From Desulfobacterales bacterium (GTDB lineage Bacteria > Desulfobacterota > Desulfobacteria > Desulfobacterales > SpSt-501), in the NCBI GenBank assembly GCA_030834695.1, contig JAUQXK010000089.1, forward strand, positions 1 to 64,000: a DNA stretch of 64,000 nt, given 5' to 3'. A model generated the notes under the pieces. It was not told where the DNA came from, did no database searches, and worked only from the letters and a program-made list of their open reading frames with translations. Below, in pieces: positions 10,998-26,672 of this stretch (position 1 is its first letter; the number at the start of each line of letters is the position of its first letter). A program made the translations under genes and the position numbers.

Positions 10998-11072
10998 CGT
11001 AGAGGTTAGTGTGCAACCTAAATCCTACTACATCAGTTTAAGGAATCGAAATCTCCCTGCCAGCAAGGAAAA

Positions 11073-11110
11073 CAATGGGGCCAGACCTACACATTTGATA
11101 ATTTGATTTG
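11073..11110 (+). repeat. Short terminal-type motif of the accessory island
   Basis: GGGGCCAGACCTACACATTT followed by a TGATAATTTGATTTG tail. It resembles the motif at about 9608 and marks the right edge of the AT-richer segment; GC-rich sequence resumes immediately after. Confidence 0.35.
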
Positions 11111-11249
11111 AATTCGAGAACCGGCACGTTGTTTCGTTTTTGATATATGTCTTGTAAGGGGGCCGGCCGGCGAGGCCCCGCATCAGCGCCGTTCAGGGCC
11201 GGATCGACCCAACCGCTCAGCGCCGGCCGCACCGCTGCCTCACATCTCC

Positions 11250-11675
11250 TCACATCTGCTGGGCCGCCAGGAACATGGACTGCGACAGCGCCGCGAAAAA
11301 GCGCTGATACGGTTCGGGATCCTCGATCGCCTGGATATTGTACTGGGCGTTGGCCCGGACCAGCACTTGCGACTCGCCCCGCGGCCTCACGCTGACGGTC
11401 ATCTTCAGCACGTAGCCGGACAGCTTGGTGGCGCTGACGAGGCCCAGCGAGGCGTTGGCCTTGTCGACCACGAATCCTAAGTCCTGCAGCGTCGCAATCA
11501 CCGCACGCATGGTTCTGTTCTGATCGGGCGTGTCGAAAACCCGCGACTGGATCGAGCGGAGCCTGACTTCCGACTCCTGGGTCTCCAGCACCTGGCGCGT
11601 GGACGGGGCGCAGGCGCAAATGATGAGCAGCAAGAATGCCGATCCCCACAGGGTGGCGAAGCGTATCGTTTTCAT
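11250..11675 (-). CDS. Lipoprotein, paralogue of the next gene upstream
   Basis: A 141-residue predicted lipoprotein: signal peptide residues 1-21 and a lipobox ending at Cys22 (IICAC). The mature part shares a recognisable core with the 11672-12229 product. SRVFDTPDQNRTMRAVIATLQDLGF aligns with SRQFDTDEQTLLSASAALLQDLGF, and GLVSATK with GLIFCSK; both end in an F-x-x-L-x-QS-x-FL-x-A motif. The pair is therefore an ancient tandem duplication. The start overlaps the preceding stop by 4 bases, so the genes are coupled. It is the last gene of the five-lipoprotein cluster. No biochemical function is recognised. Confidence 0.7.
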   Translation of the reverse strand: MKTIRFATLWGSAFLLLIICACAPSTRQVLETQESEVRLRSIQSRVFDTPDQNRTMRAVIATLQDLGFVVDKANASLGLVSATKLSGYVLKMTVSVRPRGESQVLVRANAQYNIQAIEDPEPYQRFFAALSQSMFLAAQQM

Positions 11676-12229
11676 AGCGCGTTTGCCTCCAGAAACAGGG
11701 ATTGAGCCAGTTTGTCGAAAAATTCACGATACATCTGTGGTTCGACCACACTTTCCCGTCGACTGGCCAGGCCCCGATCGTTGCGGACGATTCGCTGGAA
11801 CGATACTCTCACGGCCGTCCGGCATTTGGAGGGGACGACGGCATCCACCACGACCGGCTGAGTCACCACCGACACCCGGATCCATTGATCCCTGTCGACG
11901 GGAGGGATGACGCCGGTGAGCAGGGCCAGTGCGACGGCTCCGATCACCTGCTCCGTGCGGGTGGCGTCGCGATGCTTGGAGCAGAAGATCAGCCCGTAGG
12001 CCGGTTCGCTTTCCTCGATCATGAACCCCAGGTCCTGAAGCAGGGCGGCACTCGCGGAAAGCAGCGTCTGCTCGTCGGTGTCAAACTGCCGGCTTTGCAG
12101 TTGACGCTGGCTCAGGCCGTCGGGTGCAAGCTGCAGGGCGTCCCTGGGGATTTGCGGGGCGCAGTTGTTGAGCAGCAGCATCAACCCCGCCGCCAGCAAG
12201 ATGAATTGGATCATGACCTTGTACCGCAT
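11672..12229 (-). CDS. Lipoprotein, paralogue of the downstream gene
   Basis: A 185-residue predicted lipoprotein with a hydrophobic signal (residues 8-20) and Cys23 after LLNN, an acceptable but non-classical lipobox. ATG at 12229 is chosen because GGAGGT lies 5 bases upstream; an in-frame GTG four codons earlier would overlap that site. The core (SRQFDTDEQTLLSASAALLQDLGF) repeats in the downstream gene. It has an extra hydrophobic insert (QVIGAVALALLTGVIPPVD) that could be membrane-associated. It is 14 bases downstream of the SmpA-like lipoprotein gene. It probably acts at the outer membrane or periplasmic face; function unknown. Confidence 0.7.
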   Translation of the reverse strand: MRYKVMIQFILLAAGLMLLLNNCAPQIPRDALQLAPDGLSQRQLQSRQFDTDEQTLLSASAALLQDLGFMIEESEPAYGLIFCSKHRDATRTEQVIGAVALALLTGVIPPVDRDQWIRVSVVTQPVVVDAVVPSKCRTAVRVSFQRIVRNDRGLASRRESVVEPQMYREFFDKLAQSLFLEANAL

Positions 12230-12243
12230 GGGCACCTCCACGG

Positions 12244-12702
12244 TCAGAAACTGGATTGGCGGTACGCAAAATCGCGGACCCGGTGGTCTTCGGTGAATTT
12301 GATGATCACGGTCAGCGTACGCTGGCTGGTCGATGAGGCCCCTGCGCTTTTCAAGAAATTGGGCAGAACGCCCCCGCCTCCGGCGACGCTGCCGGTGAAT
12401 CCCGCCAGGATGAGGGCCGCGACCCCACCCGAACTGGCGGAGTAGGCATGCTCGGTTGCGATGCGGTCATACACCCATACCTCCCGCCGGTTTTCGTCGG
12501 TGGCGACCACGTTCGGCGAGCCCAATGCCTCCGCCACCTCGGCGCTCGTCATCCCCATGCGGATCTCGCGCTGCACCTTCCCGGCGCTCAGCCGGCCGGC
12601 ATCGTCGGCCCGGACAGCCTCCCGATGCTCGGCCGCCGTTGAGCACCCCAGCAAGGTCAGCGCGAATGCCAGGCACATGGCCCAACCTAATAACCGTTTC
12701 AT
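12244..12702 (-). CDS. SmpA/BamE-like lipoprotein
   Basis: A 152-residue protein with a classical lipobox (LLGC, Cys20). The mature N-terminal part has the BamE/OmlA/SmpA fold signature: I-RMGMT-SAEV-AEALGSPN, then a strand ending EVWVYDR. In BamE this module binds the outer-membrane assembly machine; in many stand-alone lipoproteins its role is unknown. A Gly/Ala-rich insert (about residues 85-115) separates it from a C-terminal strand (QRTLTVIIKFTEDHRVRDFAYR) that is usual for the family. AGGTGA precedes the start. It is part of the minus-strand lipoprotein run. Confidence 0.7.
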   Translation of the reverse strand: MKRLLGWAMCLAFALTLLGCSTAAEHREAVRADDAGRLSAGKVQREIRMGMTSAEVAEALGSPNVVATDENRREVWVYDRIATEHAYSASSGGVAALILAGFTGSVAGGGGVLPNFLKSAGASSTSQRTLTVIIKFTEDHRVRDFAYRQSSF

Positions 12703-12794
12703 GATTCACCTCCCAGGTTTCCGTCGTCGCCGCTTTTTATACGGATCCGACTTTATAGATTCCTGCGTGTCAGCGGTCAGAGCCCCCGGACGCA

Positions 12795-13244
12795 TCACTG
12801 GCTCTGCTCCCCGCCCTTGAAGTATTCGACGGTTTCCACGCGGTCGTTGCCGTTGTAAGTGACGAGCACCATGGTGTCCGTGCCGCTGAAAATCATTTCC
12901 GTGGGTGTACCGACCGCCTCCCAGAGTCCGAAGGTCAAGATATCGGCGGTTCCATGGAGGACGGCCCTCGAGACTCTGGCCGGCTGGGAGTAGCCCTGCT
13001 TGAATTTGTAAACCTCGGAGCGGACTCCGTCTCGATTTTCATAGCCGGACGGCAGGCCCATCTCCGCCAGGACCACCTGCCGCGGCACCCCCGGCTTGAA
13101 GACTTCGAGGTTTTTCTTGTCCGGAAGCTGGGCGGCCATGAACACCGAGCAGCCCGCGAGATTGAACAACAGGCAGGCCGCAGCCAGGAGTAATTGCATG
13201 GCACCACAGAACCCGTCTTCATTCCGTTTCATGGTAGTTTTCAT
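12795..13244 (-). CDS. Lipoprotein with BamE-like repeat
   Basis: A 149-residue predicted lipoprotein, Cys31 in NLAGC. The start at 13244 is chosen because a longer frame runs into the neighbouring gene; a second ATG lies four codons later. The mature part has a BamE-like motif (PGVPRQVVLAEMGLPSGYENRDGVRSEVYKFKQG). A segment with a conserved look follows (RAVLHGTADILTFGLWEAVGTPTE), then a strand (MVLVTYNGNDRVETVEYF). Proteins of this shape are common as uncharacterised lipoproteins in proteobacteria. The 77-base gap to the preceding gene shows no promoter I can support, so it is probably in the same operon. Confidence 0.68.
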   Translation of the reverse strand: MKTTMKRNEDGFCGAMQLLLAAACLLFNLAGCSVFMAAQLPDKKNLEVFKPGVPRQVVLAEMGLPSGYENRDGVRSEVYKFKQGYSQPARVSRAVLHGTADILTFGLWEAVGTPTEMIFSGTDTMVLVTYNGNDRVETVEYFKGGEQSQ

Positions 13245-13320
13245 TGCTTGCCCCTCGCTTTTTTTTGGATTTAGCCCACGCTTTTGAGCTGCTATCGAAA
13301 AGTCGTCCAAACGAGGTCGT

Positions 13321-14157
13321 TTACCGGTATTCCCAGAAGCGACCGCCAAGCATAATGATCGTAGTAATAATCGCTGTGTCCGCTGCGACCGCCGGAACCA
13401 TCATCAAGGTATAAGGGTTGACCCATTCGCTGCCGGGTTCAAAGGCGCCGGCGACTCCGCTTGCCTTTACCGGCTCACCGCTTCCGGCAGGCGGCAGGTA
13501 GAGCAGCAGAACATCCCTGGTATCGGATGATCCGGGCACCGGCCCATTCATTAACGAAGGCTCGGTCTTGGTCTCGTGGTCATCGGATGCAAAGCTGATT
13601 TCAATGATCCGGCCTTCGTTGCTTGCGCTGCTGGCAGAAGACGAGAGAATACCCGGCAGTCGCGATTGATCTTCGCGGCGGATTTGGAGAGCTTCGATCT
13701 TCAATTCCGAAATCGGGGAAAGGCTATCGCCGGCGGACTTGCCGCACCCCTTTTGCGCGTCCTGCAGGGGGTAGAGGTGCCAGCTCATGTCCGCTTGACC
13801 TTTTGATCCATGAGTTTGTTCAGCCCGGCTGTAGCCGACCGGCATGAAGTCTGCGAAGGTCTTGCCGATCCGGGATGCCTGCGAAAGGTTGATCGTGAAG
13901 GCCTGCGGCGCGTCGGCAGGCGAATCGCGAAACTCGACGCAGGCGAATGCGTCACTGCTGGCTACGACATAGCCGGAGCGGACGGCTGCCAGCGACCAGA
14001 AGTTGGTAGCTTCCTTCACCCGTGTCTCGCGCGCTCGTCTGAGATCGAGAACTTTATTGGTGATGCATCCGGACAGGCTTAAGAACCCGAATAATAAAAC
14101 AGCAATCATAAGGATACGCTGGATGGCCTTTCTCAACGGGCGGCTTTCAGGCTTCAT
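13321..14157 (-). CDS. Lipoprotein, first gene of the sigma-54-controlled cluster
   Basis: A 278-residue protein with a basic N-terminus, hydrophobic residues 14-28 and a lipobox LSGC (Cys31). The mature region has no domain I recognise. A hydrophobic stretch near the C-terminus (LMMVPAVAADTAIITTIIMLGG) could be a membrane anchor, giving a protein tethered at both ends. GGGAGGTGG lies just upstream of the ATG. A well-matched -24/-12 promoter (14187-14202) ends about 30 bases upstream, and two candidate activator boxes lie further up. It is the leader gene of a run of five lipoproteins extending to 11250. Confidence 0.65.
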   Translation of the reverse strand: MKPESRPLRKAIQRILMIAVLLFGFLSLSGCITNKVLDLRRARETRVKEATNFWSLAAVRSGYVVASSDAFACVEFRDSPADAPQAFTINLSQASRIGKTFADFMPVGYSRAEQTHGSKGQADMSWHLYPLQDAQKGCGKSAGDSLSPISELKIEALQIRREDQSRLPGILSSSASSASNEGRIIEISFASDDHETKTEPSLMNGPVPGSSDTRDVLLLYLPPAGSGEPVKASGVAGAFEPGSEWVNPYTLMMVPAVAADTAIITTIIMLGGRFWEYR

Positions 14158-14186
14158 ATTCCACCTCCCTTTTTAAAGAATAGTAG

Positions 14187-14202
14187 AGCAAGCCCCGTAC
14201 CA
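14187..14202 (-). promoter_or_regulatory. Sigma-54 (-24/-12) promoter of the lipoprotein cluster
   Basis: On the minus strand the site reads TGGTACGGGGCTTGCT, a full match to TGGYAYRN4TTGCW with the GG and GC pairs at the required spacing. Its -12 end lies 30 bases from the lipoprotein ATG at 14157, leaving a short leader that carries the ribosome site. An NtrC-type regulator is encoded at 19512-20936. Two similar promoters precede the large activase and the EEP gene. Confidence 0.72.
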
Positions 14203-14366
14203 TGGGCCCAGAGGAACCGCTGCCTTCAGCGGCTTTTGGAAATTCCGAGACAAGCATTCAGGCAACTATCAGAAATCGTATCGAAAACACTAAGGCCTAA
14301 AAGCCAGGCGAACCGAGAGATCGCTGCCCGACGAATGTCCTCGATCCGAGAAGCGGGGGAGAAAAG

Positions 14367-14386
14367 CTGCAACTGCGGTTGACAAC
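14367..14386. promoter_or_regulatory. Candidate activator box 1 (lipoprotein promoter)
   Basis: CTGCAACTGCGGTTGACAAC, centred about 188 bases upstream of the -12 element. It matches 25169-25188 (CTGCAACCGGAGTTGACACC) at 16 of 20 positions, and that copy lies 183 bases from its own -12 element. Confidence 0.5.
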
Positions 14387-14443
14387 TCAGAGGGGATTTG
14401 AAGTAATTGCTTTTTGTTTCAAGCGGTTGCCTGAGATAAAAGC

Positions 14444-14459
14444 GGTTGACCCGTCAACC
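14444..14459. promoter_or_regulatory. Candidate activator box 2: perfect inverted repeat
   Basis: GGTTGACCCGTCAACC, two 7-base arms around CC, centred about 263 bases upstream of the -12 element. The related GTTGACCGGTCAAC stands at the equivalent place before the activase gene. Enhancer-like spacing suits an NtrC-family activator. Confidence 0.5.
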
Positions 14460-14530
14460 CTGGCAGCATCCCTAAATCGGGGCAACCTCGGGCGGGCAAA
14501 ATTTGGTGGGCTTCAAGTGCTGAGTGAATC

Positions 14531-14609
14531 TGTCATTTCGACCACAGGGAGAAAGCAATTTCTTTACCGCGTCACAGCCGAAATGTTTCCCGCTTCGCTC
14601 GAAATGACT
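14531..14609. repeat. Dispersed palindromic repeat
   Basis: TCATTTCGA (14533-14541) and TCGAAATGA (14599-14607) form the arms, with a GGGAGAAA/TTTCCCGC-type interior. The pattern is that of a widespread non-coding extragenic palindrome. It lies between the activase operon end and the lipoprotein promoter region. Confidence 0.5.
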
Positions 14610-14634
14610 TGTTGGCGGATCACTTGCGAGTGCT

Positions 14635-15996
14635 TCAGGTGGTTGGCCATTTCCGGCCGTGGCGCTGCAAGTGCTGCCGGGCCTGGTACATGAAGGTGCG
14701 GATGGCGGTTTCGCGGTTGGGCTGGATGCTGTCGTCGTAGGGGGTGTCCAGAAAGGGGAAACCCAGTTCATGCATGATCGGCCGCACGACGGCCGATGTG
14801 GTCATGCCGGGCATGCAGGTGAATGGGTAGACATTCACTACGCCGTTATACCCGTTGCGGGCGCAGTGAAGGATACCGGGAATGCTCAGGCTGGCCTCGG
14901 TGGGGATGTCGAAAGAAAAATCGCCCGATTCTTTCAGAATCTTCTCCAGGTGTGAAATGCGGTGGTCGCCGGCAATGTCCAGGCGCCGCCTGGCACGTTT
15001 GAAGACCGCACGCTGGGTTTTCTCCTGAAAAAGCAGATTGACCCCGAAGCCAAGCATTTCCCGGATCGATTCTTTCACCTGGCGGGGGCGAAGCAGCCTC
15101 AGCCCCAGCCTCAGCTTTCTTTTCGCCTGCCGCAGCCCGTCGTAGCTCACGTAGTTCAGCCACTCCGTCATGGAGGCGTTGACCACCTCCGCCCCGTATC
15201 GTTCAAGCAATCGAATCAAGTCCTGATTGGAGCTGCGGTGCATTCGCAGGAAAATTTCCCCCACCATGCCGATGAGCGGCTTCGGGGGGATGGCCGGATC
15301 GATGACTGCCTGGCCGGCCGCGAGGATCTGTTCGAGCTCGCCGACGACCGGATCAAAGGGGTTCCCGGCGCCGGTCCGCTCGGTAACCTCCATCAGACGT
15401 TGCAGGCCCTGTTCCGCGAGGGCATCGGTCAGACCGGACGCCTTCTCATAGGGCCTGACTCTCCAGGCCAGCCGGTCCAGGACATCGGATACGACCATGG
15501 CCAGACAGGCCGTCTGCTTGAAGCGCTGAGTCTTCTGCGGGTCGATCAGGCCCTCCGGCGAGTAATTGTCCGTATTGGTGAGAGAGCTGATTTTCAAGGC
15601 CTGCAAGTCCGGCAGCGAATCCAGGACCATCCGCTGGTATTTGTTGTACATCCCGAACCGGCAGGGGCCCTCCGACTCCGGCATGAAGAAGACATAACGG
15701 GCCGCCTGAAAGGCTGCTCCCAGGCGACGGCTTTCCTCTTCGACAAAATGCAGAAGGTCTCCCAACGTGACCAGGCAGGGGTAGCACTCCTTGCCGGAAG
15801 TGAATTTCTTGCCGAGATCCAGACCCCGGCCGGTTGCCAGCACCTGGGCATCGACGGCAAAGGCCCTCAAGGCGGCCGCAAAGAGATGCGCGCTGCTGCG
15901 GTTCATCTCGGGGATCAGGACGTTGCTCTTCCCCAGTTGGAGTTTTCCGACGGTTTTGGTTGAAGCCGGCATTTGAAGTACATTCGCGCTTTCCAT
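14635..15996 (-). CDS. 2-hydroxyacyl-CoA dehydratase-like / activase C-terminal-type protein
   Basis: A 453-residue protein resembling the C-terminal third of very large (about 1400-residue) acyl-CoA dehydratase activase-related proteins. It also resembles the HgdB-like dehydratase fold. Visible landmarks are LIPEMNRSSAHLFAAALRAFAVDAQVL near the start, a conserved CYPC in SGKECYPCLVTLGDLL, EGPCRFGMYNKYQ, and late IPGILHCARNGYNGVVNVYPFTCMPG. These cysteines are candidate Fe-S ligands. AGGAGAAGG precedes the ATG. It lies 104 bases downstream of the large activase on the same strand, and the two genes together equal the usual single long protein. A substrate is not predictable. Confidence 0.7.
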   Translation of the reverse strand: MESANVLQMPASTKTVGKLQLGKSNVLIPEMNRSSAHLFAAALRAFAVDAQVLATGRGLDLGKKFTSGKECYPCLVTLGDLLHFVEEESRRLGAAFQAARYVFFMPESEGPCRFGMYNKYQRMVLDSLPDLQALKISSLTNTDNYSPEGLIDPQKTQRFKQTACLAMVVSDVLDRLAWRVRPYEKASGLTDALAEQGLQRLMEVTERTGAGNPFDPVVGELEQILAAGQAVIDPAIPPKPLIGMVGEIFLRMHRSSNQDLIRLLERYGAEVVNASMTEWLNYVSYDGLRQAKRKLRLGLRLLRPRQVKESIREMLGFGVNLLFQEKTQRAVFKRARRRLDIAGDHRISHLEKILKESGDFSFDIPTEASLSIPGILHCARNGYNGVVNVYPFTCMPGMTTSAVVRPIMHELGFPFLDTPYDDSIQPNRETAIRTFMYQARQHLQRHGRKWPTT

Positions 15997-16100
15997 GGCA
16001 AACCTTCTCCTTATTTCTTGCTCCTGAAATTATTTCGTTTCACGTTTAGCAAAAGTTAGGCGGAGGGGGTATTCGCCCTTTCGCGAATTGGCCCCTACGG

Positions 16101-19100
16101 TCAGATCCCCCGTCCGGCCACGGCCCGCGGCCGGCATTGCACTGGCGGCTGCTTCGCCAACGTGTTGTAAATCACGTTCTGGTAAGCTTCCAACCGGGTC
16201 ATGACGCCAGCCGCAGCGCTGTGCTCGTCCAATTCGAGGATGAGACAGGCCTTGGCACCCATCGTGTGCTTGTAAAAATGTTCGATGAAGGAATCCGCAC
16301 CGCAGCCGAAATTCGTCAGGTGCAGCCCGAAATAATTCGGGGTGGCGCTGATCAGCCGGGCGGTCCGCAGAATCTGGGCTCCCAGCCCCCAGTACATTGA
16401 TGCGAAATCCCCGAGGTGGATGCGGGACGCATCGATGAAATCCATGGGCAGGGCCGCCAGGCCGATTTTAGCCAAGCTCTGACCCAGCCTCAGGTTCAGG
16501 CGTTCGTCGTAAAGGTTGTAGGGTCGGCCGGTCACCACCACGAGCGGCTCGTCCGCTCCGATGCCTTTGAGGATGTGGTCACCGACGCGGTGCAGCTCTT
16601 TCACGAAGTGATCCTGGCGCTCCAGGGCATGCTTCAGCGCCTGGCGGACCCGGCTCTTGCCGACTCCGAGCCGGCGCCCCATTTGCGCGTGAAGATCCAG
16701 CGCCAGCATGTCCGCGTCCGACCGGAGGTTCAGGACCGGGCTCAGGACCGCTTCCGCCGGCATCCCCAGGGCGGCACGGATCATGTAAGTATTGCTCTGA
16801 ACCATGGGACAGAAATACCCCCGTTCGCGCTCGTGTGAGGTCGCCATATCCAGCGGGATGGGAAGGAACAGATGGCGCGTCCGGCCCATCAGCAGCCTGG
16901 CATGGCCGTGGGACACTTTTACGGGGTAACAGGTCTCGGCCGTCATGGTCTCGATGCCGCTTCTGGATATCGACTCGTTGGTGGGCGGCGAAAGCACTAG
17001 CCGGAACCCCAGCTGGTCGAAGAAATGCGCCCACAGCAGGCAGCCGTGGATTCCATAGAGCGCCCGCATCATGCCCACAGTGGGCCGGCCGTCTATCTCC
17101 AGGAGGGGAGCAGCGTCCGGCAGGGCCGCGTATACGCCCGCCATGTGATCTTCCCAGATTTTGGCCCGCAGCCGGAAATAGTTCTCCTTGTAGCTGGCGC
17201 CAGAGGAGAGGTCGTAGCGGCCGCATTCCCCGCCCCACACGCTCTTGCGGCCGTCGAAACTGTAGATTTTTAGTTTGCACTGGTTCTGGCATTTGGGGTC
17301 GGCCTGGCAGGTCTTCTCCAGAAAGAGCATCCGGTCTCCGACGGCGCGCTCGATCCCGCGGAACGTGCTGGGTCTCCGCCCCCCCTCCGCATGCATCTTT
17401 TCCTGAACGCACACGGCGGCACCGAAGGCGCCGAGGACCTCACGGTGCCGGGGGACCAGCAGCCCGCGGCCGAGCACGTTCTCGAAAGCGGCAACAACGC
17501 CTTTGTTGAGCGACGGCCCGCCCAGGAACATCACCCGCTCGCCGATCCGGCGCTTCCCGACCACCCGGTTCAGGTAGTTGTGAACCACGGCATAGCAAAG
17601 GCCGGCGATGAGATCCTGACGGGCCGCGCCTTTCTGATGAAAGGACATGAGATCGGATTCCATGAACACCGTGCAGCGCTCGGCCAGCTTCACCGGCGTT
17701 TCGGAGGCGAGCGCGATTTCCTGGAACTCGCCCACGATGTCGATGCCGAGTTTGTTGGCCAGCTCGTGCAGGAAACTTCCCGTGCCCGCAGCGCAGACCT
17801 TGTTCATGTCGAAGTCGAGGGGGTGGGTGTCGCGGATGGCGATGTACTTGGAATCCTGGCCGCCGATTTCAAAGATGGTGTCGACCGTTGGGTCGACCGC
17901 GACCGCTCCCCGCGCGTGCGCCGTGATCTCGTCGATGATGAGATCCGCCTTCAGAAAATCCCCGACGACGTTCCGTCCCGACCCCGTCGTCGCCACCCCC
18001 TGAATTTTTAGATCCGGCCCCATCTGCACCTGGATGTGCCGAAGGAGCCCTTGGGCCGTTTCGACAGGCTTTCCGCAAGTCGGCACATAGCGCTTGTCGA
18101 CGATCCGACCGGCCTCGTCGATCAGGGCGTATTTGGTGGTCGTGGATCCGATGTCGATGCCCAGGTACCCGCGCAACCCGGCGGCCGGCATCCGGCGCGG
18201 GATGTCGTTGCCTTCCGGAAAGGCGGTTTTCCGCAGCGCGAGCCTTTGACCGACAGGCACCGCCGCCGCCCGGCGGTCGCTCGGGGTGGCGAGAGCCGCC
18301 GGATCGATTTTAGCCGTGCGACCGGCAGCAAAGCCGTGAAGCGCGGCCCCCAGGGCGCCCAGGGACGTGCTGTGCGGCGGCACCGCCAGGCCCGGAAAAT
18401 AGTTCCGCAGCGCTTTGACCTGAAGCTCGTTGAGGGACAGTCCGCCGATGAACAGGATGGGATCCTGCAGGACCCGGTTCGCGACCACGGTGCTGAGATA
18501 GTTGCGGGCGTTGCCGACGTGCAGGCCATGGATGATGTCTTCGAGCCGTTCGCCTTTGTTTTGAAGGTGGATCATGTCCGATTTGGTGAAAACCGTGCAG
18601 CGGCAGGCAACAGTGGCCGGCTGCCGGCTTTTCAGGCCCACTGCGATGAAGTCGGCCAGGATCCGTTCGATCGGCGGACGGTCCCGGTCGCCGCGACGTT
18701 CATAAATGGAGGTCGCCAGGCGCTCCGCCTGCTGGTCGATGAAAGACCCCGTTCCGGAAGCGCAGGGTCCATTGGTGTTGAAATGCTCCAACTCCCAGTT
18801 CGACCCGTGGTGGGCCACCTGCATCAAGGCCGTCTCCTGTCCTCCCATGCTGATCACGGTCCGCACCTCCGGCGAGATGTGAACGGCGCCCAGCAGCTGG
18901 CTGATGATGCCGACCTCATAAGGGGCGCCACACCGTTCACTGAGGTGGCGGCCATGGCTGCCGGTGAACGCGGTGACCGTGATTCGATCGGATCCGAAGC
19001 GGGTTTCAAGATCGCCGACCAGTTCAGCGACGCTTTCCTCCACCTTGCCGAAGTGCCGGCGATAAGGACTTGCGTAGATGATCTGCTTCTGTTCATCGAT

Positions 19101-19190
19101 GACAATGCCGTTAACGCTGACGGAGCCGGCGTCGATGCCGGCATACAGCGCCTTGCCCGGCGCGCTTTGGTCTGCATTGAATGACGTCAT
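16101..19190 (-). CDS. Large acyl-CoA dehydratase activase (two BcrAD/BadFG domains + DUF2229)
   Basis: A 1029-residue protein. Residues 14 to about 300 and 341 to about 610 are two ASKHA-fold activase domains, opening with YAGIDAGSVS and YLGIDIGSTTTKYA. Both carry the two cysteines that hold the bridging [4Fe-4S] cluster in HgdC-type activases: Cys143 (GPCASGTGSF) and Cys198 (CRCTVF), then Cys466 (KVCAAGTGSF) and Cys506 (AERCTVF). The rest is a DUF2229-type region with TAETCYPVKVSHGHARLL. Such activases use ATP to push a low-potential electron into a dehydratase. ATG 19190 has AAAGGAG upstream; the longer frame was rejected. A sigma-54 promoter lies about 50 bases upstream. The true partner enzyme is unknown. 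Confidence 0.85.
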   Translation of the reverse strand: MTSFNADQSAPGKALYAGIDAGSVSVNGIVIDEQKQIIYASPYRRHFGKVEESVAELVGDLETRFGSDRITVTAFTGSHGRHLSERCGAPYEVGIISQLLGAVHISPEVRTVISMGGQETALMQVAHHGSNWELEHFNTNGPCASGTGSFIDQQAERLATSIYERRGDRDRPPIERILADFIAVGLKSRQPATVACRCTVFTKSDMIHLQNKGERLEDIIHGLHVGNARNYLSTVVANRVLQDPILFIGGLSLNELQVKALRNYFPGLAVPPHSTSLGALGAALHGFAAGRTAKIDPAALATPSDRRAAAVPVGQRLALRKTAFPEGNDIPRRMPAAGLRGYLGIDIGSTTTKYALIDEAGRIVDKRYVPTCGKPVETAQGLLRHIQVQMGPDLKIQGVATTGSGRNVVGDFLKADLIIDEITAHARGAVAVDPTVDTIFEIGGQDSKYIAIRDTHPLDFDMNKVCAAGTGSFLHELANKLGIDIVGEFQEIALASETPVKLAERCTVFMESDLMSFHQKGAARQDLIAGLCYAVVHNYLNRVVGKRRIGERVMFLGGPSLNKGVVAAFENVLGRGLLVPRHREVLGAFGAAVCVQEKMHAEGGRRPSTFRGIERAVGDRMLFLEKTCQADPKCQNQCKLKIYSFDGRKSVWGGECGRYDLSSGASYKENYFRLRAKIWEDHMAGVYAALPDAAPLLEIDGRPTVGMMRALYGIHGCLLWAHFFDQLGFRLVLSPPTNESISRSGIETMTAETCYPVKVSHGHARLLMGRTRHLFLPIPLDMATSHERERGYFCPMVQSNTYMIRAALGMPAEAVLSPVLNLRSDADMLALDLHAQMGRRLGVGKSRVRQALKHALERQDHFVKELHRVGDHILKGIGADEPLVVVTGRPYNLYDERLNLRLGQSLAKIGLAALPMDFIDASRIHLGDFASMYWGLGAQILRTARLISATPNYFGLHLTNFGCGADSFIEHFYKHTMGAKACLILELDEHSAAAGVMTRLEAYQNVIYNTLAKQPPVQCRPRAVAGRGI

Positions 19191-19238
19191 GAAATTTCTC
19201 CTTTGGCGCATGGTTGCGACTGCCTTGGACAGCGGTAG

Positions 19239-19254
19239 AGCAATCGGCATACCA
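19239..19254 (-). promoter_or_regulatory. Sigma-54 (-24/-12) promoter of the activase operon
   Basis: Minus-strand TGGTATGCCGATTGCT fits TGGYAYRN4TTGCW at every constrained position. Predicted transcription starts near 19227, about 37 bases before the ATG at 19190. The gene immediately upstream (19512-20936) encodes a sigma-54 activator. Confidence 0.72.
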
Positions 19255-19481
19255 ACCGTCCGTGGGCCGGAGGGGCGCCCGCGCTGTATAATCCTGTGGA
19301 GAGCGGCAACGGATTGGAATCATATGAGAAGCAAAAATTTTCGAAGGAGAGTCAGGAATCGGCTTGTGGTCGCTCTCGAAAGGGACCCGGCTGTGCCGAG
19401 GCTGCAACCGGAATCGCGGGGAAGGGCTGGAAAAGGCGCCGAAGATGCCGGAACGATGAGGAATCTAATTCGTGGTCGAGG

Positions 19482-19495
19482 GTTGACCGGTCAAC
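19482..19495. promoter_or_regulatory. Candidate activator site: 14-base palindrome
   Basis: GTTGACCGGTCAAC is a perfect palindrome centred about 248 bases upstream of the activase -12 element. It is closely related to the inverted repeat at 14444-14459. It could be the enhancer bound by the adjacent NtrC-type regulator. Confidence 0.5.
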
Positions 19496-19511
19496 GTGAA
19501 ATGCATCCTTC

Positions 19512-20936
19512 TCAAGACGAGACGGCTGGTTTTTTGAGGCGCTTGTTGAGCGCCTGGCGCGTGATCCCCAGCATCATGGCGGCGATGGCCTGGTTGCCGC
19601 CGGACCGCCGCAGGGCTTCGTCCACCAGCAGGCGCTCGACCTGCTTGATCGTCGGCAGAGGGTCCGGGAAGGCCGTCGCCCCGCCGGCCGCATCAAGCGG
19701 GCCGGCGGCGTCGCCGGCCAGGCCCGGCTGCGCTTTGAAGATCTCGGACTTGAAAGCATCCATGGAAAGCTTGCCCGCCGCGTGGATGCTGACCGCGTTG
19801 TACACCATGGACTCCAGCTCCCTGACGTTGCCGGGGAAATGATAGGACGCCAGCAGCTTGAGGAGCTCACCCGGTGGGGTGGGTTTTTTCTTGCCCAGGC
19901 TGTGCGCCGCTTTTTCGAGGAAGTGATCCAGCAGAACCGGTAGGTCTTCCGGTCGCTCCCGAAGCGGCGGAACCTGCAGCCGGTGCCCGCAAAGCCGGTA
20001 GTAGAGGTCCTTGCGGAATCGGCCGGAGTTGCGGGCGGCCTCCAGGTCCTGATTGGTCGCCACCACGATGCGGGCATCCGATCGCTTGGCCAGGTCGGAA
20101 CCCAAGGGCAGATACTCTCCGTCCTGCAGCAGCCGCAGGAGTTTGACCTGGGAGACGGCGCTGAGGTCGCCGATTTCGTCCAGGAAAAGCGTCCCGCCGG
20201 CGGCCTGCTCCAGCAGGCCGGGCCGGCCTTCCATGGCACCGGTAAAAGCGCCCTTTTTATGGCCGAACAGGGTGTCGGCGAACACGTGGTCGTCCAGCCC
20301 GGCGACGTTGACCGGAGTGAAGGCCCCCTTGCGGTTGCTCAAGGTGTGTACGGCCCGCGCCACCAGCTCCTTGCCCACCCCAGTCTCTCCGGTGATCAAG
20401 ACCGGCCGCGGGCTGGGTGCTACGGCCTCGATATATTGAAAGATGGATCGCATGCCGTGGCTGATGGTGACGATGTCCGCAAAGGCTTCGGGACGGCTCA
20501 GCCGGTCGGTGAGGATGCGCGCCTTGAGCAGTTGATTTTCACGGTGCAGTTCACGCAGCTCGATGCCCCGCTTCACGCTGCTGACCAGCCGGCTCTTCTC
20601 GACCGGTTTGACGATGTAGTCAAAGGCGCCTTGCTTCATGCACTTGACGGCGGTTTCCACATCGTCCGCCCCCGTGACGATGATAACGGGCACATCCGGG
20701 TAGTCGACCGTGATCTGCCGCAGCAGCTCTTCGCCGGATAGATTGGGCATCCACAAATCGAGCAGCATGATCTCGATCTCCTGGCGGGCGATGACGGACA
20801 TGACTTCGCGGCTGTCTTGACAGCAGATGAAGTTGTTCATGCTGGCGGAGCGCAGGGTCAGCTCGAAACTGGTCAAGGCCTGGGCCTCATCGTCGACCAC
20901 CATGACCGGCAGTTCAGGGTAGATTGTTTCTTTCAT
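19512..20936 (-). CDS. NtrC-family sigma-54-dependent response regulator
   Basis: A 474-residue protein with the three standard domains. The receiver spans 1 to about 125, with phospho-acceptor Asp60 (LLDLWMP), acidic pair Asp15-Asp16 and Lys110. The AAA+ domain has Walker A GETGVGKE at 183-190, the sigma-54-contacting GAFTGA at 229-234, and Walker B GTLFLDE at 249-255. The C-terminus is a Fis-type HTH (IAAMMLGITRQALNKRLKK). All motifs needed for sigma-54 activation are intact. The sensor kinase gene ends 13 bases upstream. Three sigma-54 promoters in the surrounding genes are its likely targets; that link is inference. Confidence 0.92.
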   Translation of the reverse strand: MKETIYPELPVMVVDDEAQALTSFELTLRSASMNNFICCQDSREVMSVIARQEIEIMLLDLWMPNLSGEELLRQITVDYPDVPVIIVTGADDVETAVKCMKQGAFDYIVKPVEKSRLVSSVKRGIELRELHRENQLLKARILTDRLSRPEAFADIVTISHGMRSIFQYIEAVAPSPRPVLITGETGVGKELVARAVHTLSNRKGAFTPVNVAGLDDHVFADTLFGHKKGAFTGAMEGRPGLLEQAAGGTLFLDEIGDLSAVSQVKLLRLLQDGEYLPLGSDLAKRSDARIVVATNQDLEAARNSGRFRKDLYYRLCGHRLQVPPLRERPEDLPVLLDHFLEKAAHSLGKKKPTPPGELLKLLASYHFPGNVRELESMVYNAVSIHAAGKLSMDAFKSEIFKAQPGLAGDAAGPLDAAGGATAFPDPLPTIKQVERLLVDEALRRSGGNQAIAAMMLGITRQALNKRLKKPAVSS

Positions 20937-20949
20937 GGAGAACGTCCTT

Positions 20950-23454
20950 TCAGCCGGCAGCGTCCGCGCGGCACGGCAGAGTGATTTCCACGGTTGTTCC
21001 GGCGCCGGGCTGCGACGTGAAGCGCATGGTCCCGCGGTGCTCCTCGACGATCCGCGCGGAGATCGACAACCCCAGGCCGAGGCCGCCGGATTCCTGCTTG
21101 GTGGTGAAAAACGGCTCCCGAATGCGGGCCAGGTCCTCCTCCGAGATCCCTGCGCCTTCGTCCTGAACTCGGATCACGACATGTTCACCGGTATCGGCGA
21201 GCGTGGTCGAAATGAAAATGCCTTGGGCCTTGTCCGCCAGCGCCTGGCAGGCGTTTTGAATCAGGTTGATGATCACCTGCTCAAGCCGTTGGAAGCTCCC
21301 CTTCACCGGCGGCAAGCCGGGGCCGCAGCGGACGGTGAAATTCGAGGTGGCGTTCTTGATCACGTTGGAAATCAGTGAAAGCGCCGACTGGATGACCGCG
21401 TTGACCTCCACGCACTGGGACAGGTCCGCGCCGTCCCCGCGCACATAGGTCTTGAGGTTGGCTACGATCTGCTTGATGCGGTCGGCGCCATCCGCAACGC
21501 CGGCCAGCAGCCTGGGCATGTGCTGCCGCAGATCCGAATATTTCATCCCGCCCATCAAAAACTCGCCGTTTTCTTTGTAATAGTCTTCCAAGATCGGCAG
21601 CGCGTTATCCCAGGCATCCCGCAGGATGGGAGCGTTCAGCATAATAAAATTGGTGGGGTTGTTGATTTCGTGGGCCACACCCGAAACCAGAACCCCCAGG
21701 GCGGCCATCTTGCTGGCCTGCATCAGCTGTTGCTGGTGCAGTTTAGCCTGCTCCTCGGCTTTCTTGCGGTCGGTGATATCGCGCACGACCCCGCGGAACC
21801 CGCTGGCGGTGCCTTTGCCGTCCCGGATCAGCGTCACGGAGGCCTCCACAATTTTCTTGGTCCCATCCTTGGTGATGACCTCCCAGTCAAACGCCTTGGT
21901 GGCCTCTCCGGTGTTGTACACCCGCAGAAAGGTTTCGTAGACCCGTTTGTAGGCCTCCGTCGGCATGTACCGCCGGTTATTCATCCCGATCAGCTCATCC
22001 CGGCCATAGCCGATGATTCCGCACAGGGAATCGTTGCAGAACATCATGTCGCCGTTCAGGTCGACCTCGTAGTAGCCTTCCTGGATGCTGTTCAAGATGG
22101 TCCGGTATTTTTCCTCGCTTTCGCGCAGCGCCTCCTCGACCCGGATGCGGTCGATCACCTCCTGTTTGAGGGATTCTAGAGTGTCGCGCAGTTCCGTGCG
22201 CTGGGTCTCGGCCAGGGTGAAGGCCCGCAGCAGCCGGAAGGACAGCAGAAACGCCTGGGAGAAGATGAAGAAAAGCATCCCGAAGGGTGCGAAAAATCCG
22301 GTACGGATGATCCGTTCGACGTGCAGCATGTCGTTGACCACTGCCAGACACAGCCCCAGCAGGCCGATCATCAGCACGAAGGCTTCCACCTGCCGCCGCA
22401 CCGGGTCCGACAGCAGCAGGCGGAAGGTGTAGACGAACAGCCCCAGGGTAAAGACATCGTAGGCATGCAGGGTATGGGTAAAGACTGCGGGCGGCGTGAA
22501 CAGCACAACGGCGGAGAAGCCAAACCCGATCACCAGGATCGCGCGAAGCAGTTTCCGCGGAAGCTGGGGGAACAGGGACTTCAGAAAGAATGCGAAGGCC
22601 GGAACGGCAAGATAGTAGGACAAATATTCCAGTTTGATCAGCACGCTCCAAGCGATGCTCGGCGCAAATTGCAGCAGGTGGCGCTCATCGGTGGTGAGCA
22701 GCCGGAGGGCCACCAGCAGGCAGACGATGCCGAAATACAGGGTCGGCCGAAATTTTTGGCGGACCGCAAAAAGGCTCAAGTGATAAACGGCCATGCAGAA
22801 TATGGCGCCGAGGATGAAAAAGTCGAAGCTGCGCTGCAGCTCGTTCAGCCGGCGTATTTGGCTTTCCGGCCCCAGGGTGATCAGATCCCACAGGCCGCCC
22901 CGGCGATGATGGAAGTTGGACACATGCAGGAGGATTTCGACTTGGTCGGATTCCGGCTGAAAGGCAACGATCGCCGGGAACTGGCGGGGGACGGTTGTCG
23001 CAGCGGCCACCCCGGCCAATCCGGCCGAGGCCGCCGGCTTCCGGTCGATGTAAATCGTGTAGGCGGTGGAGATCTCTTCTACTTTCAAGGCCAGGGGCGC
23101 GCCGGTCTGCTTCAAGAGGACGTTCAAACGGTAGGTGGCACAGCCGGTACCCGGCAGATGGGAGCCTTCCAGCCGGTACCCGTTCCAGAATCCGGGCACA
23201 TGGATGTACCCGGACGGAGGGGGTGGCGTTGCTTGCGAAAAATCCGCGGGCGACAAGTGACGCTGCCAGTAGAACTCCCACTCGCCGATAAGGTCTGCCG
23301 GCCCGTTTGCTTTGAAGTCCCAGGCGCTCAGATCGATCAGCCCGCGGTGCGCCTGGGGCGGCTTGGGGCCGGTCCATTTGCAGCCGCCCGGGCTGAAAAC
23401 CAGGATGATGAGAAAAATCGGCAGGAGACCTTTTTTGAGGCGTTGAGCGCTCAT
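20950..23454 (-). CDS. Membrane sensor histidine kinase (7TMR-DISM + PAS)
   Basis: An 834-residue kinase. An N-terminal hydrophobic signal is followed by an extracytoplasmic jelly-roll-like domain of the 7TMR-DISM extracellular type (DLIGEWEFYWQRHL, YIHVPGFWNG). About seven hydrophobic segments follow (residues about 205-400), then a coiled linker and a PAS domain (YRTILNSIQEGYYEVDLNGDMMFCND). The kinase core has an H-box SGVAHEINNPTNF and ATP-binding motifs NLIQNACQAL and GGLGLGLSISARIVEEHRG. Related extracellular domains are thought to bind carbohydrates or other small ligands. ATG 23454 (CCGGAG upstream) is preferred to a longer frame. It forms a pair with the NtrC-type regulator 13 bases downstream. 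Confidence 0.88.
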   Translation of the reverse strand: MSAQRLKKGLLPIFLIILVFSPGGCKWTGPKPPQAHRGLIDLSAWDFKANGPADLIGEWEFYWQRHLSPADFSQATPPPPSGYIHVPGFWNGYRLEGSHLPGTGCATYRLNVLLKQTGAPLALKVEEISTAYTIYIDRKPAASAGLAGVAAATTVPRQFPAIVAFQPESDQVEILLHVSNFHHRRGGLWDLITLGPESQIRRLNELQRSFDFFILGAIFCMAVYHLSLFAVRQKFRPTLYFGIVCLLVALRLLTTDERHLLQFAPSIAWSVLIKLEYLSYYLAVPAFAFFLKSLFPQLPRKLLRAILVIGFGFSAVVLFTPPAVFTHTLHAYDVFTLGLFVYTFRLLLSDPVRRQVEAFVLMIGLLGLCLAVVNDMLHVERIIRTGFFAPFGMLFFIFSQAFLLSFRLLRAFTLAETQRTELRDTLESLKQEVIDRIRVEEALRESEEKYRTILNSIQEGYYEVDLNGDMMFCNDSLCGIIGYGRDELIGMNNRRYMPTEAYKRVYETFLRVYNTGEATKAFDWEVITKDGTKKIVEASVTLIRDGKGTASGFRGVVRDITDRKKAEEQAKLHQQQLMQASKMAALGVLVSGVAHEINNPTNFIMLNAPILRDAWDNALPILEDYYKENGEFLMGGMKYSDLRQHMPRLLAGVADGADRIKQIVANLKTYVRGDGADLSQCVEVNAVIQSALSLISNVIKNATSNFTVRCGPGLPPVKGSFQRLEQVIINLIQNACQALADKAQGIFISTTLADTGEHVVIRVQDEGAGISEEDLARIREPFFTTKQESGGLGLGLSISARIVEEHRGTMRFTSQPGAGTTVEITLPCRADAAG

Positions 23455-23713
23455 CTCCGGCGGCCTCGATCGGATTGCATGTGTCCTCGGCGCCGATACC
23501 ACCACGCCGCTGGGTTTGGGGGCCTGAGATATCGACGTGCGGTTGAAGAATACTGCGCCCGCACGCGGGGTCCTGCGGATAGTAGTATGCTAAGGGCTGC
23601 ACCCTGTCAACCGGCCGGGCAGCGGAAACGGGCAGAGCCGATCACGGCCCTGCCCGGACCTGCGGGACGGATGCGATTCCACCCGGAGCAGGGATGCGGC
23701 TATCCAACGAGCC

Positions 23714-24898
23714 TCAGCGGCGATCGTTGCGCAACCGGATGGCGGCGAAAACACCGGCGTGATCCGACGGCCACAACCCGGATTCGGTTATGGCCTCGTC
23801 GGCATCATTGCCGGTGAGTTGCACGATGACCGGGTAGCGCAAATCCCCGGCACTGGTGCGATGATGGTGACGGACGAAAATGTAATCGATGCGTTCGGTG
23901 AGGGCCGATTTCTCGTTCAGCAGGTCTTCGTCCTGGCAGCAGGTGCTTCCTTTTTTGTGCCGGCCGTTGGTGCGCAACGCCCACAGATCGGCGAACCCGG
24001 CAGCCACGATCTCCTTATAATCCGGATCGCTAGGGTCCAGGTTGAAGTCGCCCACCAGAAGCACCGGCCGCCTTTCCGGCGCAAGCTTCTGAAGCAGCTC
24101 CGCAACCTGCGCCTGCTGGACCACAGTCCCGTCGGGCGCGGTCAAGCCCTCGTTTTCAACATGGGTGTTCACGAAGCGGTAGGTCTTGCCGCGAACGGTG
24201 GCGTCCACCGCCACGAACCCTCTTTGAAAGATCAATTGCTGGGTTTCCGAAAATGCCACACTGAAGTTCTTGCTGAAGCCAAAGGCCTCGGCATTTTGGG
24301 TGATGACGCCTTTTTTGGCCAGAATGACATCCCGGTCGAGGTAGTTCACGTAATCGAGAAGAGGGATGCCCGAAGCGTCGAATCCCTGCAGCATGGGCAG
24401 GGTGACGTCGGAATCCATGACTGTGCCGGCGACCTCGTAGTCCAATCCTGAATTTCGCAGGGCATCCAGCAGCAGGCCCAGGTAGTCGTATTGCTCGACC
24501 GGCTGCAACGGTGCCGACGGGTTGCCGGTCGGCCGCAATCGGGTAAACTGGGCCACTTCCTGGCAGCCGATGAGGTCCGGATTTTTCTCGCCGATCTCAA
24601 TGGCCAGCGCCTGGGCGCGCTCCGCAAAATCGTTTTGGACCATCATCGCGTATTTCTCAGCCACGGCGACGGGAATGAGACTGGGGTCAGCCACATTGAC
24701 GATCGCGAAAATGTCGGCTCCCAGGTAAAGGTTGCGGGTCATCACCCGGACGGGCAATTCATTTCGGGCCGAAGGGTCGGCCGCAGCCGGGAGGGATGCG
24801 ACCCACGCAAGCACCGCCACCAGCAGCACCAAAAAAATCCGCCCGCGTTGAAATCGTCCGAATTCGCTTTTGGTTTTTTCCAAGATCGTTTTCTTCAT
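23714..24898 (-). CDS. Secreted endonuclease/exonuclease/phosphatase-family protein
   Basis: A 394-residue protein with a signal peptide (basic region to residue 20, hydrophobic 21-37, cleavage near ASLPAAADP). The mature part is an EEP-fold hydrolase. It opens with RVMTRNLYLGAD, has the metal Glu in DLIGCQEVAQF, GDFNLDPSD for the Asp/Asn pair, and the terminal SDHAGVFA motif. The fold includes nucleases, sphingomyelinases and inositol phosphatases; the substrate is unclear. AAAGGAGG lies 9 bases before the ATG. A sigma-54 promoter at 24994-25009 places it in the proposed regulon of the adjacent two-component system. Export suggests an extracellular or periplasmic substrate. Confidence 0.82.
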   Translation of the reverse strand: MKKTILEKTKSEFGRFQRGRIFLVLLVAVLAWVASLPAAADPSARNELPVRVMTRNLYLGADIFAIVNVADPSLIPVAVAEKYAMMVQNDFAERAQALAIEIGEKNPDLIGCQEVAQFTRLRPTGNPSAPLQPVEQYDYLGLLLDALRNSGLDYEVAGTVMDSDVTLPMLQGFDASGIPLLDYVNYLDRDVILAKKGVITQNAEAFGFSKNFSVAFSETQQLIFQRGFVAVDATVRGKTYRFVNTHVENEGLTAPDGTVVQQAQVAELLQKLAPERRPVLLVGDFNLDPSDPDYKEIVAAGFADLWALRTNGRHKKGSTCCQDEDLLNEKSALTERIDYIFVRHHHRTSAGDLRYPVIVQLTGNDADEAITESGLWPSDHAGVFAAIRLRNDRR

Positions 24899-24993
24899 CG
24901 TGAATACCTCCTTTCCTGTCGTTTACGATTAACTATGGCTCCGGTCGCAGGTCCCACAGGCCTCAGCCCGCAAGGGCCATGACCGCAACTAAG

Positions 24994-25009
24994 AGCAACT
25001 GCTGTACCA
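24994..25009 (-). promoter_or_regulatory. Sigma-54 (-24/-12) promoter of the secreted EEP gene
   Basis: Minus-strand TGGTACAGCAGTTGCT fits TGGYAYRN4TTGCW completely. The leader to the ATG at 24898 would be about 85 bases. All three such sites in this block share TGGTAY and TTGCT. Confidence 0.7.
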
Positions 25010-25168
25010 GTCCGTACAGAATGGCGGAAGATGCCGCCGCACATTCTTTGGATGCAAGGATCATCTGTAGGTGATTTTCTTAGGAAGAATGACGAGTTAC
25101 ACAGACACGGAGAAATGCTTCCAGGCCTCCGCAACCCAAGCTTGATTCCTAATTGAGGGTTCGGAACC

Positions 25169-25188
25169 CTGCAACCGGAGTTGACACC
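25169..25188. promoter_or_regulatory. Candidate activator box 1 (EEP promoter)
   Basis: CTGCAACCGGAGTTGACACC, centred about 183 bases upstream of the -12 element and matching 14367-14386 at 16 of 20 positions. Confidence 0.5.
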
Positions 25189-25235
25189 GTTCTGCCGCAG
25201 GCCGCTCCGCTGCAACGCGGGACGCATTCGAGGCG

Positions 25236-25248
25236 GGTTGACGCAACC
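25236..25248. promoter_or_regulatory. Candidate activator box 2 (EEP promoter)
   Basis: GGTTGACGCAACC, an inverted repeat of GGTTG around ACG, centred about 247 bases upstream of the -12 element. It keeps the same left arm (GGTTGAC) and spacing as the other two promoters. Confidence 0.45.
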
Positions 25249-25437
25249 GGCTCATTTGCATCCTTGCGCCTGCGCATGCGAGCGAGGCCGGAACGAGCGG
25301 GGAGCCAATTGCCAATCGCTCGGTTTTCGATTAATTGATGAGTTCAATCCAGGCCCGATCTCGGCGATCGAAAGCTTCCGGACGGACCCGCTTGAGGGCC
25401 GGCGCATCGTAAACCCCAACGCAAAGGATTCCCCGCC

Positions 25438-26568
25438 ATGCAAAAGAACACCCAATGCGTCCACAGCGGCTCCCGTATCGATCCGGCCACCGGAGGGTTG
25501 AACACGCCGGTCTATCCGTCGTCCGCCTTCCGGTATCTGGACATGGCCGAAAACGTCTATCCCCGGTACTACAATACGCCGAATCAAAAGACCGTGGTCG
25601 AAAAACTCTGCGATCTGGAAGGGGCTGAGGGCGGGATTCTGTTCAGCTCGGGGATGGCGGCCATTAGTGCCATGATGTTGGCGTTCTTGAACAGCGGCGA
25701 TCACGCCGTCATACAGAAAGACATCTACGGCGGTACTCACCATTTCGTTTCCGCCGATTTCAAACGCTTCGGAATCGAGTTCACCTTCACGGGGAATTCG
25801 ACCCAAGAGATCGAGGCTGCCGTCCGGCCCGACACCCGATTGATTTACATTGAAACGCCATCGAACCCGCTGCTGATGATCACCGACATCCAGGCAGCCG
25901 CCGACATCGGCCGCAGACGGGGCATTGTAACCGCGATCGACAACACCTTTGCGAGCCCCATTAACCAGAACCCGCTCGGCCTCGGCATCGATGTCGTGAT
26001 TCACAGCGGCACCAAATATATCGGCGGTCACAGCGACTTGTGCTGCGGCGCGGCGCTCGGCCGCGCAAAAGAGATTACCCGGATCAAGCGCACGGCAGTC
26101 AATCTCGGGGGCAGCCTCAACGCCCTGACCTGCTATCTGCTCGAACGCAGCCTCAAAACCCTGGCGGTCCGTGTGGAGCGCCAAAATGCGAATGCCATGG
26201 CCATCGCGGAGTTTCTGGCGCGCCACCCGTTCGTACGCCGGGTCAACTATCCCGGACTCGAAAGCCATCCGGCCCATGCGATCGCGCGCCGGCAGATGTG
26301 GGGCTTCGGAGGCATGCTCTCCTTCGAGGTGGACGAGCGCCAGGTGACGTGCGACCGCTTTCTGCGCCGCTTGAAAATGGTCACGCCAGCCCTGAGCCTG
26401 GGAGGGGTGGAAACCATCATCTGCGCGCCGGCCGCCACCTCTCACGCCAAGCTGACGCCCGCCGAACGCGCGCAGCTCGGCATCAGCGAGGGCTTGTTGC
26501 GGCTGTCGGTCGGAATAGAGGACGCTGAAGACATTCTATCGGACATCGCGCAGGCGCTTTCCCGTTAG
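25438..26568 (+). CDS. Cys/Met-metabolism PLP-dependent enzyme
   Basis: A 376-residue fold-type I PLP enzyme of the cystathionine gamma-synthase / beta-lyase / methionine gamma-lyase group. The PLP lysine lies in HSGTKYIGGHSD. Phosphate-binding FSSGMAAISAM and the cofactor-contact AIDNTFASP are in place. The usual YxRxxNPT tetramer motif is changed to YPRYYNTPNQ. A late LGGVETIICAPAATSHA segment fits the substrate-binding end. It may cleave or form C-S bonds in sulfur amino-acid metabolism; the exact reaction (lyase or transferase) cannot be settled. An AAAGGA lies 9 bases upstream. It stands alone on the plus strand. Confidence 0.82.
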   Translation: MQKNTQCVHSGSRIDPATGGLNTPVYPSSAFRYLDMAENVYPRYYNTPNQKTVVEKLCDLEGAEGGILFSSGMAAISAMMLAFLNSGDHAVIQKDIYGGTHHFVSADFKRFGIEFTFTGNSTQEIEAAVRPDTRLIYIETPSNPLLMITDIQAAADIGRRRGIVTAIDNTFASPINQNPLGLGIDVVIHSGTKYIGGHSDLCCGAALGRAKEITRIKRTAVNLGGSLNALTCYLLERSLKTLAVRVERQNANAMAIAEFLARHPFVRRVNYPGLESHPAHAIARRQMWGFGGMLSFEVDERQVTCDRFLRRLKMVTPALSLGGVETIICAPAATSHAKLTPAERAQLGISEGLLRLSVGIEDAEDILSDIAQALSR

Positions 26569-26672
26569 AAACGGTTTACTATCCAGGCGATTTCCATTAT
26601 AAAATATTTGCATTTTCATCGGGCCGAAGGGCGCATGCGGTCACCTCAAACTGAGTCACGAAAGGATGAACC

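Follow-up and report, generated by a model that had tools for sequence, protein, structure and literature searches.

The question raised by this locus is whether three sigma-54-type promoters lying around a single kinase-regulator pair are served by one activator, and what such a regulon would do. The locus lies in a 64-kb stretch of DNA (the window) from a Desulfobacterales bacterium, an uncultured relative of sulfate-reducing bacteria with a genome of 5.65 Mb. Its genes are all on the minus strand, in the order of an EEP-fold hydrolase (EEP), a histidine kinase, an NtrC-type response regulator, a large activase (ACT), its dehydratase-like partner (DCOMP), and five lipoproteins (LP1 to LP5; 11250-14157). 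The whole is probably best explained as a regulon for remodelling the envelope and the membrane lipids, controlled by a two-component system and dependent on sigma-54. Regulation of these promoters by the adjacent regulator is predicted with high confidence. Judged from promoter sequences and their conservation, the regulon is real, extends further than a preliminary description of this DNA claimed, and has a mode of control that recurs across the order.

The pattern TGGYAYRN4TTGCW was matched exactly three times in the window, compared to a mean of 0.09 in shuffled sequences, and no shuffle gave three matches. These were the minus-strand sites that the preliminary description had located, and its estimate of about 20 bits for the pattern was right. 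Each site pointed at a gene start, as had been proposed. The distances were about 96 nt for EEP (start codon at 24898), 48 nt for ACT (19190), and 29 nt for LP1 (14157), and each start codon was preceded by a ribosome-binding site. The longest open reading frame (ORF) of ACT starts at 19250 and overlaps the promoter, so 19190 was taken as the real start. Across the genome, the pattern was matched 31 times, compared to 4 times for the reversed-pattern control, indicating that real sigma-54 elements make up most of the genomic matches. The genome has one rpoN gene (Sigma54_DBD), and known RNA elements were absent from positions 9000-27000 of the window. The clustering of the three sites was rejected as proof, because three of 31 sites fell within 10.8 kb in 4.5% of simulated random placements (P about 0.045). 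Clustering alone thus proves little, and the case is made by a shared upstream enhancer.

Half-sites of the type GTTGAC, GTCAAC, or GTTGCA, which were missed in the first reading, were located 150-260 bp upstream of all three promoters (Table 1). The genome contains two exact copies of the palindrome GTTGACN2GTCAAC, before ACT and LP1, and likewise two of the word GTCAACN4GTTGCA, before EEP and LP1. A paired GTTG/CAAC arrangement within 350 bp was not found at any of 27 further exact sigma-54 sites examined in the genome. Since the exact words are private to these promoters, they are the strongest sign that one activator serves all three and little else. One-mismatch enhancer matches elsewhere in the genome were rejected as further regulon members because a good sigma-54 site was missing downstream. 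Within this genome, the regulon therefore looks local.

Relatives that keep the genes were found to conserve the sites, the opposite of the loss that would count against a local sigma-54 regulon around an NtrC-type regulator. This central claim of the preliminary description is strongly supported by the shared enhancer and its conservation. In the same genus, G005 (ACT-DCOMP about 90% identical) keeps the spacing and most of the sequence of the ACT and LP1 promoters and enhancers, and G002 (70%) keeps the ACT promoter and the palindrome. About 23 genomes of the order contained regulator orthologues of at least 62% identity. The ACT survey covered 73 loci with visible upstream DNA, comprising 10 linked to the kinase-regulator pair and 63 unlinked. 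At nine of the ten linked loci, a sigma-54 site preceded ACT, and at the tenth (L074) it preceded LP3, with which the same run of genes begins. Only one unlinked locus (L106) showed an exact site, and two others had one-mismatch sites with a poor -12 element. The L106 genome, which we take to be G174, has a 70% regulator orthologue elsewhere. All 12 sigma-54-marked rows of the DCOMP tree fell into one clade of 16 members (support 94), of which the remaining four lie on contigs without upstream DNA of ACT.

Among the regulator-linked promoters of the order, two elements about 86 bp apart were recognized: a distal one, TGCAAN5TTTTGCNNTGTAAAC, at -280 to -297, and a proximal one, GTCAAN6TTGCACCCTT, at -175 to -211. 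The proximal element was present in 23 of 31 linked promoters; it was absent from all 27 control sigma-54 promoters and occurred at 0.7% of random positions. The linked promoters are related by descent, and Fisher values overstate their independence.

The enhancer-linked targets varied. They included ACT-DCOMP, a fused ACT-DCOMP paralogue of about 1,525 aa in other families, and lipoproteins of the LP3-LP4 type (L074 and L218), which at L216 follow the fused gene. At L212 and L215, the target cluster encodes PPDK_N, class-III aminotransferase, UbiA, and DUF3419 proteins. An LPG_synthase_TM gene comes after DCOMP in four loci, and LPG_synthase_TM operons also stand under the same switch. In genomes with LP3, the enhancer-sigma-54 arrangement was located upstream in 6 of 11 that have the regulator, compared to 0 of 6 that do not. 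The LP3-LP4-LP5 genes of G259, on a contig other than that of the regulator, carry both enhancer elements and a sigma-54 site, an arrangement in trans.

Other arrangements were also recorded. Many unlinked ACT-DCOMP pairs adjoin ribonuclease G and polA genes, named from sequence by eye. G174 contains two ACT-DCOMP copies (L106 and L208), and a separate LP1 relative with a sigma-54 site and both enhancer elements lies between one of them and the kinase-regulator pair. A sigma-54 site with enhancer elements precedes the gene for a 69-aa protein at L071 (9094-9146, minus strand) and that for a 34-aa hydrophobic peptide at L206 (11251-11370). The regulator relatives at 57-60% identity (L221-L223) were without the enhancer, and the one at L223 has a sigma-54 site with the variant half-site GGTTGTA (10650-10872), which suggests that binding specificity drifts with the regulator.

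Two other accounts of the promoters were weighed against control by the adjacent regulator. Deltaproteobacterial genomes encode many enhancer-binding activators (PMC12316311), and another one in the genome might activate these sigma-54-dependent promoters with the adjacent regulator as a bystander. In agreement with such an account, the LP3-LP4-LP5 operons of G223 (L250 762-777) and G129 (L251 9514-9529) have sigma-54 sites preceded by a deviating motif, TGTCCGC...GCGTACA, which suggests that they use another activator; they were left out of the supporting count for that motif. However, the enhancer tracks the presence and identity of the regulator, appearing at 62% identity or above and not at 57-60%, and in G174 the unlinked ACT keeps its site in a genome that has the regulator. 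A bystander role is thus very improbable. That the -24/-12 sites are chance matches and not functional promoters is hardly credible; the simulated placements lend it something, but private enhancers shared at fixed distances and conserved across families of the order stand against it. Several points weigh against the main reading of the locus. Besides the common descent of the linked promoters and the deviating motif of G223 and G129, the ACT promoter of the window lacks a strict proximal element, and the regulator orthologues of L217 and L205 have neither ACT nor LP genes nearby. What the sequence itself shows is the promoters, a private shared enhancer, conservation, and enhancer-regulator linkage.

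The product of the ACT operon had been described as an ATP-driven low-potential electron donor. ACT has the domains of an ATP-driven activase, but the label is incomplete, because in the PlsA/PlsR-Ger lipid ester reductases, whose domain plan it shares, such an activase is part of the lipid-modifying enzyme. Since two activase domains, DUF2229, and a dehydratase-like partner make up the plan of Ger and PlsA, ACT-DCOMP appears somewhat likely to be a two-gene member of this superfamily, converting ester lipids to ether or vinyl ether lipids. Expression of plsA-plsR in E. coli leads to plasmalogens (PMC12838417), and Ger of Desulfatibacillum and Thermotoga, with two activase domains, converts ester to alkyl ether bonds (PMC13274423, PMC11150832). 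The lipid assignment is further backed by the genes under the same switch elsewhere, namely the fused paralogue, the DUF3419/UbiA cluster, or LPG_synthase_TM operons. It is also backed by a fused paralogue in the host genome (contig C5; L228 5948-12048), which directly follows a CDP-alcohol phosphatidyltransferase gene. The fused paralogues under the switch in other families are 65-68% identical to this copy and orthologous to it.

A non-lipid enzyme within a real regulon was also considered, either an ATP-driven low-potential electron donor that stands alone or a reductase or dehydratase for small substrates, of the double-cubane or 2-hydroxyacyl-CoA dehydratase type. The solved relatives of the activase domain are activators of 2-hydroxyacyl-CoA dehydratases and of a benzoyl-CoA reductase, ACT matches the acyl-CoA dehydratase activase model TIGR00241, and DCOMP has neither a Pfam match (HGD-D included) nor a solved structural relative. 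The match of DCOMP to the fused paralogues is confined to their C-terminal part (26%), where counterparts of Cys71, Cys74, and Cys112 are present; these three and Cys394 were invariant in a 10-sequence alignment. Some points also count against the lipid assignment itself: ACT-DCOMP is only 28-30% identical to the fused paralogues, its assignment to PlsA/Ger comes from comparison with the published domain plan, and Ger and PlsA are inseparable by sequence according to their authors (PMC13274423). A non-lipid function is nevertheless rather unlikely in view of that domain plan (PMC13274423), the lipid or envelope genes driven by the same switch, and the rarity of DUF2229. Of 14 control genomes, only 4 contain this domain, including those of Thermotoga maritima and Lactococcus lactis, and family enzymes from these or close relatives make ether lipids.

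The remaining features are collected in Table 1. Pfam confirmed the domains of the GAFTGA activator and the 7TMR-DISM kinase that had been described between the sites, and no equivalog model matched this pair above its cut-off. The kinase probably starts at 23454 rather than 23505. A lipobox-like Cys ends the hydrophobic stretch at its N-terminus (23380-23454, minus strand), before the ectodomain, and is conserved in 13 aligned orthologues by eye and in 12 by pattern; the sensor kinase may therefore be a lipid-anchored lipoprotein. In the structural model, the ectodomain forms a beta-sandwich that weakly matches the sugar-binding domains of GH2 enzymes. Control of all these genes by a single surface signal, as the preliminary description proposed, is putative, and that signal might be envelope or lipid stress.

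The secreted EEP hydrolase of the preliminary description is a real EEP-fold protein with a predicted export signal. Its Foldseek matches, obtained from a low-confidence model (pLDDT 57), were TDP2-like EEP folds. A true sphingomyelinase was rejected, as TIGR03395 gave 19 bits compared to a cut-off of 248. In the sister genome G005, the EEP gene was lost together with its core promoter: a decayed remnant is left (L069 10260-10580), the -24/-12 element is deleted, and the enhancer half-sites remain. The five-lipoprotein cluster encodes real envelope lipoproteins, but the fifth gene is 11250-11675 and not the longer ORF 11038-11751 given before.

Table 1. Predicted genes, promoters, and enhancer elements of the locus in window coordinates
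Feature	Position	Strand	Sequence	Basis and remarks
EEP distal enhancer element	25236..25248	-	GGTTGCGTCAACC	shared half-sites
EEP proximal enhancer element	25170..25185	-	GTCAACTCCGGTTGCA	176 bp before -24; one of two exact GTCAACN4GTTGCA in genome
EEP sigma-54 -24/-12 promoter	24994..25009	-	TGGTACAGCAGTTGCT	exact pattern match
EEP-fold phosphodiesterase, 394 aa	23714..24898	-		Pfam PF03372; predicted signal peptide (by inspection)
7TMR-DISM histidine kinase with PAS, HisKA, HATPase	20950..23505	-		Pfam; PF07695 E=4.8e-23; 13 orthologues aligned
NtrC-type response regulator, 474 aa (receiver, AAA+, Fis HTH)	19512..20936	-		Pfam; GAFTGA at residue 229
ACT distal enhancer element	19482..19495	-	GTTGACCGGTCAAC	241 bp before -24; one of two exact GTTGACN2GTCAAC
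ACT proximal enhancer half-site	19403..19408	-	GTTGCA	kept in G005 and G002
ACT operon sigma-54 -24/-12 promoter	19239..19254	-	TGGTATGCCGATTGCT	exact match; kept in G005, G002, and other families
ACT, 1029 aa, two BcrAD_BadFG ATPase domains and DUF2229, PlsA/Ger-like	16101..19190	-		Pfam PF01869 (two stretches), PF09989; TIGR00241
DCOMP, 453 aa, dehydratase-like partner, PlsR-like; Cys71/74/112/394	14635..15996	-		matches C-terminal part of fused paralogues
LP1 distal enhancer element	14445..14458	-	GTTGACGGGTCAAC	256 bp before -24; one of two exact in genome; identical in G005
LP1 proximal enhancer element	14368..14383	-	GTCAACCGCAGTTGCA	181 bp before -24; one of two exact in genome
Lipoprotein operon sigma-54 -24/-12 promoter	14187..14202	-	TGGTACGGGGCTTGCT	exact match; in G005 with same spacing
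LP1 lipoprotein, 278 aa	13321..14157	-		lipobox LSGC; the G005 and G174 relatives also lie behind sigma-54 sites
LP2 lipoprotein, 149 aa	12795..13244	-		lipobox LAGC
LP3 lipoprotein, BamE-like, 152 aa	12244..12702	-		just under Pfam cut-off; in 17 of 291 genomes
LP4 lipoprotein-like, 189 aa	11672..12241	-		homologues adjoin LP3 in L074, L216, L218, L248, L253
LP5 lipoprotein, 141 aa	11250..11675	-		LP4 paralogue (37% identity); homologues of 60-65% in L248, L250, L251, L253

We infer the following mechanism, in which regulator binding, kinase phosphorylation, enzyme chemistry, and the signal are all putative. The kinase, with its periplasmic beta-sandwich, seven-helix membrane part, and PAS domain, would phosphorylate the adjacent NtrC-type regulator. 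The regulator would then bind the two elements of the paired enhancer, about 175-210 bp and about 240-300 bp before -24, and use ATP hydrolysis to open RNA polymerase-sigma-54 complexes at the three promoters. One output would be ACT-DCOMP as a PlsA/PlsR-Ger-type Fe-S enzyme, whose probable reaction is the reduction of an ester-linked phospholipid acyl chain, giving an ether or vinyl ether. The other outputs would be the five envelope lipoproteins, one of them BamE-like, and the exported EEP phosphodiesterase. Read-through from EEP into the kinase and regulator genes could provide positive feedback.

Ether lipids of sulfate reducers serve as environmental biomarkers. In the literature searched, we did not find a description of how bacteria decide to make ether lipids, of a regulon with this content, of the conserved paired enhancer, or of the regulator of such a module; the predicted regulatory mechanism itself is of the known NtrC-type kind. 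If the assignment is true, a regulator, a set of target genes, and a defined, scannable enhancer would make ester-to-ether lipid switching directly testable, and would give function leads for DUF2229 proteins and several unnamed lipoprotein families. More tentatively, the order may have a widespread two-component/sigma-54 membrane-remodelling response in which families plug different lipid enzymes into the same paired enhancer, and which would be the first known dedicated two-component control of bacterial ether-lipid or plasmalogen synthesis.

Compared to known systems, the locus resembles the NtrBC, AtoSC, and ZraSR-type regulons in its adjacent kinase, its receiver-AAA+(GAFTGA)-Fis regulator, its -24/-12 promoters, and its upstream inverted-repeat enhancers. 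It differs in its paired enhancer, whose elements lie about 86 bp from each other and unusually far upstream (to -300), and in its targets, which comprise a PlsA/Ger-like enzyme, lipoproteins, and an EEP hydrolase. The sigma-54 regulome of Desulfovibrio vulgaris Hildenborough likewise has many activators with local target operons, and cell-exterior functions are prominent in it; in that account, a term search gave no activase, lipoprotein, or 7TM target, and a lipid A biosynthesis operon was the sole lipid target mentioned (PMC4641369). ACT-DCOMP has the two-gene layout of activase and dehydratase-like partner seen in PlsA-PlsR of Clostridium perfringens, and the two activase domains of Ger from Desulfatibacillum and Thermotoga (PMC13274423). 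Unlike these enzymes, it is under predicted sigma-54 and two-component control, and the pls regulator so far on record is TetR/AcrR-like, encoded next to pls in Enterococcus (PMC9702350). The kinase shares the PF07695 seven-helix domain and a sugar-binding-like periplasmic domain with 7TMR-DISM histidine kinases, and is set apart from them by the lipobox-like Cys before its ectodomain, which is kept in the orthologues.

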